Assembly (NCBI GenBank): GCA_021838445.1
Contig: JAKCDU010000023.1
Coordinates: 1 to 58,690 of the forward strand
Direction: 5' to 3'
Length of the DNA: 58,690 nt
Origin: Actinomycetes bacterium
Lineage (GTDB): Bacteria > Actinomycetota > Acidimicrobiia > Acidimicrobiales > Palsa-688
This document shows positions 54,570 through 58,690 of this stretch, piece by piece. A program made the position numbers and the translations under genes. Numbering within the stretch: position 1 is the first letter of the stretch; every line of letters starts with the position of its first letter. A model generated the notes under the pieces. The model had not been told where the DNA came from, searched no databases, and saw only the letters and a list, made by a program, of their open reading frames with translations.

Positions 54570-55682
54570 GTGCAGACCGAAGCGGCCATTTTGTGGGGCC
54601 AGAACGAGCAGTGGAGCGTGGAGAGCATCGAGCTCGATCCGCCCAAGGACGGCGAGGTCCTGGTGAAGCTGGCGGCGTCGGGGATGTGCCACTCCGACGA
54701 GCACCTCGTGACGGGCGACCTGGGCGGCGTGTACCCCATCATCGGGGGCCACGAAGGGGCCGGGGTGGTCCTCGAGGTGGGACCCGGGGTCACCAAGGTC
54801 AAGCCCGGCGACCACGTGGTGTTCGGTTTCATACCGGCCTGCGGGCAGTGCCCCTCCTGCGCCCGGGGTCACTCCAACCTGTGTGACAACGGCGCCGCCC
54901 TCCTCATCGGACTGCAGATGGACGGCACCTCCCGCCACCACGCCCGGGGCCAGGACATCGCCACCATGGTCTGCCTCGGGACCTTCGGCAAGCACTCCGT
55001 GGTCAACCAGATGTCCTGCGTGAAGATCCCCGAGGACATCCCGCTGGAGCTGGCCTGCCTGGTCGGTTGCGGGGTGACCACGGGGTGGGGCTCGTCGGTG
55101 TACGCCGCCGAGATCGAACCGGGCGACAATGTCGCGGTCATCGGGGTCGGGGGCATCGGGGCGGCCGCCATCCAGGGAGCCCGGCTGGCCGGCGCCGACC
55201 GCATCTTCGCCATCGACCCGGTGGAGCTCAAGCGGGAGCTGGCCCCCAAGTTCGGGGCGACCCACACCTATTCGTCGGTCGAGGAGGCCACCGAGGCCAT
55301 CCGGGCCGAGACCTGGGGCACCATGTGCCAGAAGGTCATCTGCGCCATGGGCGTGGGCAAGGGCGACATGATGGCCTCCATCATGGGCATCGTCTCCAAG
55401 CGGGGGCGCTGCGTCGTGACCAACATCCACCCGATGGCCGAGATGGAGGTGTCGCTCAATCTCTGCGATCTGACCCTCATGGAGAAGCAGATCGTGGGGA
55501 CCATCTTCGGGTCGGCCAACATCAACTACGACATCCCCCACCTGCTGCAGCTCTACCGGCTCGGTCAGCTCGACCTCGAGGGCATGGTCACCAACCGCTA
55601 CAAGCTCGGCGACATCAACCAGGGCTACCAGGACATGCGCGACGGCAAGAACATCCGGGGCGTCCTGATCTACGACGACTGA
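54570..55682 (+). CDS. NDMA-dependent alcohol dehydrogenase (zinc MDR)
   Basis: Medium-chain zinc dehydrogenase of 370 residues of the NDMA-dependent type, whose bound nicotinamide cofactor is not exchanged freely and which is often linked to mycofactocin. Catalytic zinc: SGMCHSDEHLVTGD and GGHEGAGVV; structural zinc: ACGQCPSCARGHSNLC; Rossmann: IGVGGIGAAAIQGARLAG. GTQMDGT-like LQMDGTSRHHARGQD and FGSANINYDIPHLLQLYRLGQLDL fit that subfamily. GTG start with GGAGGG just upstream. No mycofactocin genes are in the window. Confidence 0.87.
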   Translation: MQTEAAILWGQNEQWSVESIELDPPKDGEVLVKLAASGMCHSDEHLVTGDLGGVYPIIGGHEGAGVVLEVGPGVTKVKPGDHVVFGFIPACGQCPSCARGHSNLCDNGAALLIGLQMDGTSRHHARGQDIATMVCLGTFGKHSVVNQMSCVKIPEDIPLELACLVGCGVTTGWGSSVYAAEIEPGDNVAVIGVGGIGAAAIQGARLAGADRIFAIDPVELKRELAPKFGATHTYSSVEEATEAIRAETWGTMCQKVICAMGVGKGDMMASIMGIVSKRGRCVVTNIHPMAEMEVSLNLCDLTLMEKQIVGTIFGSANINYDIPHLLQLYRLGQLDLEGMVTNRYKLGDINQGYQDMRDGKNIRGVLIYDD

Positions 55683-55710: not shown

Positions 55711-56547
55711 GTGCACAGCTTCGTTCGTTCCGGCCTGACCTTCGACGTCACCGACGAGGGTCCCGCTGACGGCCGGGTGGTGATCGCCCTGCACGGCTTC
55801 CCCGAGGACCGCCGGTCGTGGTCGGGAGTGATCCCCGCGCTGACCGGCGCCGGCCACCGGGTCCTGGCCCCCGACCAACGGGGCTACTCGCCCGGAGCCC
55901 GGCCGGCGGGCCGCCGCAGCTACGTATTGTCCGAGCTGGCCGCCGACGTGCTGGCCCTGGCCGACGTGGCCGGAGCCGACCGCTTCGATGTCGTGGGCCA
56001 CGACTGGGGGGCCATCGTGGCCTGGGAGCTGGCCTGCCGCAACCCGGGCCGGGTGCGCACCCTCACCGCCCTGTCGGTCCCCCACCCGGCCGCTTTCCGC
56101 GAGGCGGTGCTGCGCAGCAACCAGCTGCTCCGATCGTGGTACATGCTCTTCTTCCAGCTTCCGGTGGTACCCGAAGCCGTCTTCGCCGCGGCCGGGGCCA
56201 AGCGCCTGGCCTCGGGCCTGGAAGCCGACGGCCTCGACGCCGAGTCGGCCCGCCGCTACACCGCCCGCCTGGCCCGAAGAGCGGACATCCACGGGCCGCT
56301 CAACTGGTACCGGGCCCTCCCCCTGGGTGCCCGACAGGGATTCCCGCCGGTGCACGTACCCACCCTGTACATCTTCGGTGACCGCGACCGCTACCTGAGC
56401 CGGGTGGCGGCCGAGCGGACGGGACGCCACGTGGTCGGCTCTTACCGCTTCGAGGTGCTCCAGGACCAGTCGCACTGGCTCCCCACGGGCGCATCCGAGC
56501 GGGTGGCGACCCTGATCAACGAGCACCTGGCGGCCCATCCCACCTGA
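55711..56547 (+). CDS. Alpha/beta hydrolase, epoxide-hydrolase-like
   Basis: Hydrolase of 278 residues. The nucleophile elbow has Asp (VVGHDWGAIVAWELA), as in epoxide hydrolases and haloalkane dehalogenases; HGFPEDRRSW is the oxyanion HGxP motif of epoxide hydrolases; DRDRYLS carries the charge-relay Asp and DQSHWLP the His. The GTG at 55711 is 28 nt after the alcohol dehydrogenase stop, so they may be co-transcribed. Epoxide hydrolase is the most likely activity; substrate unknown. Confidence 0.82.
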   Translation: MHSFVRSGLTFDVTDEGPADGRVVIALHGFPEDRRSWSGVIPALTGAGHRVLAPDQRGYSPGARPAGRRSYVLSELAADVLALADVAGADRFDVVGHDWGAIVAWELACRNPGRVRTLTALSVPHPAAFREAVLRSNQLLRSWYMLFFQLPVVPEAVFAAAGAKRLASGLEADGLDAESARRYTARLARRADIHGPLNWYRALPLGARQGFPPVHVPTLYIFGDRDRYLSRVAAERTGRHVVGSYRFEVLQDQSHWLPTGASERVATLINEHLAAHPT

Positions 56548-56668
56548 GCGGCCCGCCAGGGACCAGGTCGATTCCCCCTCAGGTCACCCTGTATGACAAA
56601 AAAGAGACCAGCAAGGCCCGATCCGATCTGTCTACGGCTCCCTTCGCCCACGCGGGCGGAGCCCCGGC

Positions 56669-56847
56669 GACCGTGTCAGCAGACGGTCACCCACTGACTA
56701 TGGGAACCGGCCAAAGGCTTTCAGATGAATCGGACCCTGCTGGAGAACTGATCGATGAAGCGCACCTCAATGGTGACTCCATCTGCTTTTCTGGTCCTGA
56801 TGCTAAGGCCGCCAGCAGGCGTCCGGCAGAGCCGAAAGACCCTTTGG
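56669..56847 (+). ncRNA. Candidate structured RNA element (unclassified)
   Basis: By hand folding: a 6-bp hairpin GACCGT/ACGGTC (56669-56688, 8-nt loop) is followed by a multibranched domain. P1 pairs CCAAAGG (56711-56717) with CCTTTGG (56841-56847) and CTTTC (56718-56722) with GAAAG (56834-56838), leaving a 2-nt bulge. Nested inside are GGACC/GGTCC (56732-56736 with 56793-56797), GGAG/CTCC (56742-56745 with 56777-56780), CACC/GGTG (56763-56766 with 56772-56775) and CGCC/GGCG (56810-56813 with 56818-56821). The stretch is clearly AT-richer than its neighbours. It matches no riboswitch class I can recall. An alternative is a coding N-terminal extension of the next gene. Confidence 0.4.
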
Positions 56848-56913
56848 AACGCCCGCCGACGGAGAGTGAGCCCACCTTGTCACGATTAGGCAACTGGCAA
56901 CCACTGACTATGG
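56691..56913. repeat. Pair of 13-bp direct repeats, 210 bp apart
   Basis: CCACTGACTATGG occurs at 56691-56703 and 56901-56913. Each contains an ATG and both ATGs are in the same frame. Between them lies the AT-richer structured segment. Confidence 0.9.
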
Positions 56914-57443
56914 AGGAACGACTCGACCGCCTCGAGTCTCTCGCCGCCATCCAGCAACTGCCCTACCGCTACGGCGTAGCCATCGACTCGCGCGACATGG
57001 ACATGATGGTCGACCTGTTCGTGGCCGATGTCCGGGTGGGCCGCGATCAGACCGGACGCGACGCCCTGAAGCGCTGGTACACCACGACCATGGCCGCGCA
57101 CGGACCCTCCTGTCACTTCATCGGCAACCACGTGGTGGACTTCGACGACGCCGACCACGCCCGGGGGATCGTCTACTGCCACGACGAGCTCGGTCACACC
57201 GACGATTGGGAACAGGGTCAACTGCAGTACTGGGACACCTACGTCCGCGTCGACGGCGAGTGGTACTTCCAGCGTCGCCGCTTCCACCGCCTCTACATGG
57301 TCGACTGGCTGGAACGGCCCAGTCACGGGGCCATGAGTCACGACGACGCGCTCACCACCCACCGGCTGCCGGAGGCCTACCCGTCGTGGTCGGCCTTCTG
57401 GGAGGGCGTCGAGCGCGACCGGGTCCGCCCTGACGGCTCATAA
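56910..57443 (+). CDS. SnoaL-like (NTF2-fold) protein with low-GC leader
   Basis: Cone-fold protein of 177 residues from the ATG at 56910. Family pattern: RLDRLESLAAIQQLPYRYGVAIDSRDMDMMVDLFVADVRVG, then HFIGNHVVDFDDADHARGIVYC and YWDTYVRVDGEWYFQRRRF, as in SnoaL-like hydratases/isomerases. The same frame stays open upstream to a GTG at 56673 (79 extra residues) and has another ATG at 56700, but that part has atypical codon use and no family similarity, so I treat it as leader. No ribosome site precedes 56910. Confidence 0.75.
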   Translation: MEERLDRLESLAAIQQLPYRYGVAIDSRDMDMMVDLFVADVRVGRDQTGRDALKRWYTTTMAAHGPSCHFIGNHVVDFDDADHARGIVYCHDELGHTDDWEQGQLQYWDTYVRVDGEWYFQRRRFHRLYMVDWLERPSHGAMSHDDALTTHRLPEAYPSWSAFWEGVERDRVRPDGS

Positions 57444-57568
57444 CCTGCTGTTAATACAGGTGCAACCCCGCCGAAATACCCGGAGGGCCATCCTGGGGCG
57501 GTGCAGCGAGCCGTCGGCCGGACCGTCCCGAGACGCCGGCCGGTAGTTACGGGCCGACGGCCCGGCCG

Positions 57569-58309
57569 GTGAGGCCGGTGAGGCCGGCGGCGGCTCGAGC
57601 TGCGGAACGGACGATCATGGTCGTCAACCCCAACACCACCTCCTCGATGACCGAGGCCGTGGTCTCCGCCGCAGCGCGGGTCGCGGCCGTGGGCACCATG
57701 GTCGTCGGCAGCACGGCCAGCCGCGGGGTCCCCGCCATCGAGTCCAACGTCGACGAGGTGTGGGGGGCCCTCGGGGTGCTCGAGCAGGTCCGGGCCGGAG
57801 AGAAGCGGGGGCTGGACGGCTACGTCATCGCCTGCTTCGGCGATACCGGCCTGGCCGCGGCCAAGGAGGCGGCGCGCGGCCCGGCGGTGGGCATGACCGA
57901 GGCCGCCCTCTTCACCGCCGCTCTGGTCGCCGCCCGGTTCACGATCATCACCCTCCCTCCCCGCACCCGTGAGCAGTCCCGCCGGGTGCTCAGGGACACG
58001 GGTCTCGAGCGGCGGGCCACCGTCCGGGCCATCGACGTGGGCGTGGCCGACCTCGCCGCCGGGGCCGCAGCGGTGTTGGAAGCCATGCTCGACGAGGGGC
58101 GCCGGGCCGTAGCCGAGGACTCGGCCGAAGCGGTCGTGCTCGGCTGCGCCGGCCTGGCCGACCTCGTCGCCCCCCTCCAGCAGGAACTCGCCGTACCGGT
58201 CATCGATGGCGTGGCGGCAGCCGTCAAGGCGGTCGAAGGTCTCCTGGCACAGGGACTGTCGACTTCGCGGGCGGGGACCTACGCCCGGACCGCCGATGTC
58301 GGACGGTGA
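57569..58309 (+). CDS. Aspartate/glutamate/hydantoin racemase family protein
   Basis: Cofactor-independent racemase fold, 246 residues. The conserved N-terminal strand MVVNPNTTSSMTEAVV, Cys in VIACFGDTGLAAAKE and second Cys in VVLGCAGLADL match hydantoin/allantoin racemases, which use two cysteines as acid and base. GTG at 57569 is one of several possible starts; repeats of GTGAGGCCG make the choice unsure. It overlaps the following amidohydrolase by 14 nt, suggesting joint action on a cyclic amide (inference). Confidence 0.8.
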   Translation: MRPVRPAAARAAERTIMVVNPNTTSSMTEAVVSAAARVAAVGTMVVGSTASRGVPAIESNVDEVWGALGVLEQVRAGEKRGLDGYVIACFGDTGLAAAKEAARGPAVGMTEAALFTAALVAARFTIITLPPRTREQSRRVLRDTGLERRATVRAIDVGVADLAAGAAAVLEAMLDEGRRAVAEDSAEAVVLGCAGLADLVAPLQQELAVPVIDGVAAAVKAVEGLLAQGLSTSRAGTYARTADVGR

Positions 58310-58690
58310 CGCCCTGACCGTGCTCTTCAAAGACGTCCTCGTCTACCACCCTGACGGGATCACCGGTCCCGTCGATGTCATGGTGAGCGGCCAGCGGATC
58401 GCCGGTATCGGCTCGGTGCCGGCCGGCCCGGCCGACCTGGTGGTGGAGGGGCGATCGCATCATCTTCTCGTACCCGGTCTGCTGAACGCCCACTTCCACT
58501 CCCCGGCCAACCACCTCAAAGGGTCTCTGCCGAGCATGCCGCTCGAGATGTTCATGCTCTACGAGAGCCCCGCCGACGAGAGCCTGCGGCCCTCCCCCAG
58601 AGAGGCCTATCTGCGCACCATGCTCGCGGCCACCGAGATGCTGCGCAACGGGACGACGTCGGTCCAAGACGACGCCTTCCTCATGCCCTC
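58296..58690 (+). CDS. Amidohydrolase (cytosine deaminase/chlorohydrolase-like), 3' end outside window
   Basis: First 131 residues of a metal-dependent amidohydrolase; the frame is open to the window end. An N-terminal beta sandwich (VLFKDVLVYHPDGI, VDVMVSGQRIAGIGSV) leads to the metal-binding HxH in VPGLLNAHFHSP, followed by MLAATEMLRNGTTSVQDD, as in the TrzN/AtzB/guanine-deaminase-like subgroup. Starts with ATG at 58296 inside the racemase gene. A role in hydantoin, purine or triazine-like ring breakdown is possible; the rest of the protein is needed. Confidence 0.8.
   Translation, partial: MSDGDALTVLFKDVLVYHPDGITGPVDVMVSGQRIAGIGSVPAGPADLVVEGRSHHLLVPGLLNAHFHSPANHLKGSLPSMPLEMFMLYESPADESLRPSPREAYLRTMLAATEMLRNGTTSVQDDAFLMP

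Follow-up and report, generated by a model that had tools for sequence, protein, structure and literature searches.

The stretch examined here is best explained as having two parts: an ordinary intergenic 5' leader (56548-56876), non-coding and preceding a SnoaL-like gene, and the opening 12 codons of the gene itself. We assign this reading a probability of roughly 78%. The stretch forms part of a 58,690-nucleotide window, i.e. the whole stretch of DNA that was analysed (genome G000). The leader would sit at the junction of a lineage-specific block placed behind an alcohol dehydrogenase (ADH)-hydrolase pair, which would leave it with no counterpart outside two sister genomes, G000 and G001. 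Promoter, operator and ribosome-binding signals are presumably carried by this leader. The coordinates of all features are collected in Table 1.

Table 1. Features in and around the spacer upstream of the SnoaL-like gene; G001 is the sister genome.
Feature	Position	Strand	Basis or remark
NDMA-dependent alcohol dehydrogenase gene, upstream neighbour	54570..55682	+	NCBIfam TIGR03989, E 3.7e-161; in several family genomes it forms a pair with the hydrolase gene
Alpha/beta hydrolase gene, directly 5' of the spacer	55711..56547	+	Pfam PF00561, E 3.3e-24; synteny with the ADH gene
Non-coding spacer between the two genes (62% G+C), presumed to serve the SnoaL-like gene as 5' leader	56548..56876	+	Detected in G000 and G001 alone
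Sub-domain A, outer helix CCAGCAAGGCCCGAT 56608-56622 / ATCGGACCCTGCTGG 56729-56743	56608..56743	+	Encloses hairpins 56636-56663, 56669-56688 and 56690-56704
Perfect 6-bp hairpin, GACCGT 56669-56674 / ACGGTC 56683-56688	56669..56688	+	Only loop base 56682 differs in G001
Repeat CCACTGACTATGG, copy 1	56691..56703	+	In the spacer; identical in G001
Sub-domain B (multibranched), P1 56711-56722 / 56834-56847, 12 bp with a 2-nt bulge	56711..56847	+	Arm 56731-56743 / 56812-56825
1-bp deletion site in G001, between the repeat copies	56728..56730	+	Sister-genome alignment
Likely Shine-Dalgarno site GGAGAG	56861..56866	+	10 nt before TTG 56877 (GGAG core 12 nt before); invariant in G001
SnoaL-like (SnoaL_4) gene	56877..57443	+	PF13577, E 6.5e-23, and N-terminal alignment with ATG-starting homologues
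Repeat CCACTGACTATGG, copy 2	56901..56913	+	Lies in the SnoaL-like gene as codons 9-12 (Pro Leu Thr Met); G001 has CCACGGACCTTGG
Asp/Glu/hydantoin racemase-family gene, the following member of the lineage-specific block	57617..58309	+	PF01177, E 6e-47

Start codon of the SnoaL-like gene and the direct repeat

The protein encoded downstream of the spacer scores 81.5 bits against the SnoaL_4 profile PF13577, well above the cut-off of 24, and nothing about it is unusual for this family besides its corrected start. A mechanical ORF call puts that start at GTG 56673. To place it by homology, the protein was aligned with homologues from G002 (L008, 67% identical) and from a MAG contig (L031, 66% identical). 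Both open with ATG-SRLG, which aligns with TTG 56877, and both start directly 3' of Shine-Dalgarno sites, of the GGAGG and GAGGAG type: the N-terminus of L008 reads MSRLGAWAPVSMEERM behind GGGAGGACGGCG, and that of L031 reads MSRLGPWNPVTVEERL behind GAGGAGCGTCAC. The codons from 56877 are TTG-TCA-CGA-TTA-GGC, giving (M)SRLGNWQPLTMEERL, so that the protein would begin with (M)SRLGNWQPLTMEERLDRLES. Because the homologues begin in this way behind Shine-Dalgarno sites, and because the sister genome retains both the TTG and the GGAGAG, the alignment indicates that the gene most likely starts at TTG 56877.

The sequence-only reading had taken the ATG in each repeat copy as a start codon, and neither assignment is confirmed by this comparison. 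ATG 56910 is codon 12 of the SnoaL-like gene, where L008 has Met, G001 has Leu (TTG) and L031 has Val; judged from these codons it is an internal, non-conserved methionine and not a start. The frame of the first ATG is broken in the sister genome by the 1-bp deletion between the two copies, for which reason an extension from ATG 56700 was not kept. More generally, a foreign N-terminal coding extension that yields two protein forms had been put forward; whether begun at ATG 56700 or at GTG 56673, we consider it highly improbable. In G000 the frame stays open upstream for over 120 codons, and the four substitutions nearest the gene (56798, 56849, 56855 and 56870) all fall on third codon positions, though they lie before the start placed by homology. 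However, those nearest the deletion on its 3' side (56734, 56770, 56776 and 56779) are all residue-changing second-position substitutions, and the homologues start with MSRLG; L031 has a normal ribosome-binding site there, and in G002 the frame is closed by a stop codon 13 codons further upstream. Given the third-position changes, a shorter extension beginning at TTG 56844 may be possible, though the homologues argue against it.

The two identical copies of CCACTGACTATGG are indeed present, 210 bp apart and in one frame, as had been described. Copy 1 plus one flanking base on each side folds into its own 4-bp hairpin (CCCA/TGGG), and copy 2 of the sister genome carries three mismatches relative to CCACTGACTATGG. 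When the 383-bp stretch alone is shuffled, a 13-mer repeat appears in 2 of 2000 shuffles. The whole 58.7-kb window contains about a dozen further exact direct repeats that are at least 13 bp long, are not in tandem and have their copies within 350 bp, so that one such repeat is unremarkable in a scan of the window. The 13-bp repeat is real but coincidental, one copy lying in the leader and the other in coding sequence. Since copy 2 is coding and degraded in G001, and since comparable repeats occur elsewhere in the window, the repeat at 56691/56901 marks no unit, and both alternative N-termini and a target-duplicating insertion are left unsupported. Gene conversion making copy 2 identical in G000 was also considered, as the three differences in G001 cluster; as the outgroup has Val at the Leu/Arg codon, at least one of these changes seems to have arisen in G001, and this idea was rejected.

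Composition, distribution and divergence of the spacer

With respect to base composition, the segment had been called AT-rich. The lowest G+C content among 300-bp windows does fall here (0.600 at 56701-57000, most windows having 0.65-0.78), but the spacer, 329 bases long, is still 62% G+C; it is less G+C-rich, not truly AT-rich.

This composition dip, together with the exact 13-bp direct repeat, the imperfect inverted repeats 56608-56630 / 56722-56743 and the location at a synteny junction, could be seen as traces of a mobile element, MITE-like or another insert, lying between the repeat copies with a duplicated 13-bp target. We hold such an insertion to be scarcely credible. A target duplication fits poorly because copy 2 of the repeat is coding sequence, conserved as such and different in G001, and the inverted repeats are not located at the direct repeats. 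DNA and RNA-model searches show the stretch to be single copy in its own genome, and G001 and G002 contain no second good copy, only weak second matches at E 0.7-2. Neither phages nor plasmids gave a match, viral contigs contained no exact 20-mer match, and no empty site, that is an allele shorter by exactly 210 bp, was seen in the genomes searched. A separate search for MITE-like terminal inverted repeats gave 38/39/42 for the motif in forward plus reverse orientation versus 31/31/35 for the reversed control, without clear enrichment, and this candidate was dropped.

Among the genomes searched, the spacer is restricted to two. Among 32 genomes of the family the stretch was found only in G001, three others giving just 26-33-bp matches. 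A covariance-model search with strict filters over approximately 400 genomes of the order and approximately 395 of the class detected none with the stretch besides itself, and covariance model R1 retrieved only G000 and G001. The sister genome aligns collinearly with the window for 14.7 kb (94.6% identity), and the two leaders are 94.5% identical. Divergence in the spacer amounts to 18 of 327 sites, versus 50 of 425 four-fold sites in three adjacent genes. The spacer thus appears to change at about half the neutral rate, a constraint that any promoter-bearing spacer could show.

With regard to signals in the leader, no consensus promoter was found by a method that covers actinobacterial promoters poorly, and no terminator was found on the + strand. 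On the - strand, a terminator-like stem at 56605-56624 is followed by CTTTTTTGTC, the T run being shorter in G001. A remnant gene in the spacer was also considered and rejected, as its translations, judged by eye, reveal no recognisable protein.

Folding of the leader RNA

The hairpin, the bulged 12-bp P1 and the long arm enclosed by it, all drawn by hand in the sequence-only reading, can be found in the leader (Table 1). A cis-regulatory RNA had been proposed on this basis. Expressed in terms of the folds described here, the leader would be a lineage-specific structured RNA in which two exclusive folds switch access to the SnoaL ribosome-binding site or switch transcription, arm 56729-56743 pairing either with 56608-56622 (domain A) or with 56812-56826 (domain B). 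We regard this as unlikely. Its position as a true 5' leader fits, as does the change at about half the four-fold rate, and the two sub-domains are indeed mutually exclusive, since both use arm 56729-56743. Three 15-mers of related sequence that alternate in orientation (56608-56622, 56729-56743 and 56812-56826) permit two exclusive long helices.

In the case of fold stability, the whole 345-nt stretch has a z of only -0.68, with 27 of 100 shuffles folding as well. Sub-windows A (56604-56747) and B (56705-56850), each of approximately 145 nt and selected after the fact, reach z values of -2.9 and -3.1 in G000 and of -3.8 and -4.2 in G001 against dinucleotide shuffles. These values would favour a structured RNA; against it, z values of -2.9 and -3.8 are attained by about 1.5% and 0.5%, respectively, of same-size windows across the sequence. 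The stable-looking folds of the leader are at most modest. The best inverted repeat of the stretch is equalled in 3 of 120 shuffles.

In the case of covariation, the outer helix of A shows one compensatory pair in G001 (56621/56730, A-U to G-C) and one mismatch restored to a pair (56617/56734), and P1 of B is unchanged, all of which would be expected to count in favour of an RNA. Set against this, only two sequences with 94.5% identity can be compared, and the compensatory count on the fold from G000 alone gives P 0.08, or 0.05 for both criteria together, which is not significant. A fold drawn to suit both sequences gives P 0.0009, a circular value, and an alternative gap placement for the G001 deletion leaves zero compensatory pairs. 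The inner three-helix arm of B takes up different folds in G000 and G001, a cmscan of Rfam 15, at gathering level and up to E 10, gave no relevant match, and the stretch does not recur in further lineages in front of related genes, model R1 retrieving it from G000 and G001 alone. As a whole, the leader resembles riboswitches and structured leader RNAs in its 5' position, its closed multibranched fold and its possible alternative pairing, and it differs from them in lacking an Rfam family, phylogenetic spread, convincing covariation and an identified expression platform. The proposed regulatory RNA has the true 5' leader position and the locally stable folds in two genomes on its side, against a negative Rfam search, a comparison limited to two sequences and a compensatory pair that is single.

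The ordinary-leader explanation has its own difficulties: folds with z from -2.9 to -4.2 in both genomes, an inverted repeat matched in so few shuffles, a compensatory pair and no consensus promoter. Like other bacterial 5' leaders, the spacer is non-coding, precedes a gene that has a Shine-Dalgarno site of its own, is moderately conserved between sister species and has a G+C content below the coding mean. It is unlike them in its length, 329 bp here compared with a very short spacer before the L031 homologue, and in local folds that are somewhat more stable.

The synteny junction and its gene block

Several genera of the family retain the ADH-hydrolase pair without SnoaL and racemase genes behind it, and among 41 relatives the racemase-family gene is linked only in G000 and G001. 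Therefore, judged by gene order, the spacer is the junction at which the conserved pair meets a lineage-specific SnoaL/racemase/amidohydrolase block. Along 56877-58690 and on contig C159 of the sister genome (L034, L035), SnoaL-like, racemase-family and amidohydrolase-like genes form a block here only in G000 and G001, and in G001 it continues with genes that appear to be of polysaccharide-deacetylase and sensor-kinase/phosphatase type; the amidohydrolase-like, polysaccharide-deacetylase-type and sensor-kinase/phosphatase-type identities were judged by eye.

The SnoaL/racemase/amidohydrolase block is possibly a catabolic island. That it would be controlled by an orphan RNA switch with the alternately pairing arm 56729-56743 seems more doubtful still than a structured leader as such; if true, an alternative-pairing leader would be a new regulatory RNA, on evidence that is thin. 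In conclusion, the main value of the ordinary-leader explanation lies in a correction: TTG 56877 is most likely where the SnoaL-like gene begins, and the segment between the repeat copies does not form a unit.
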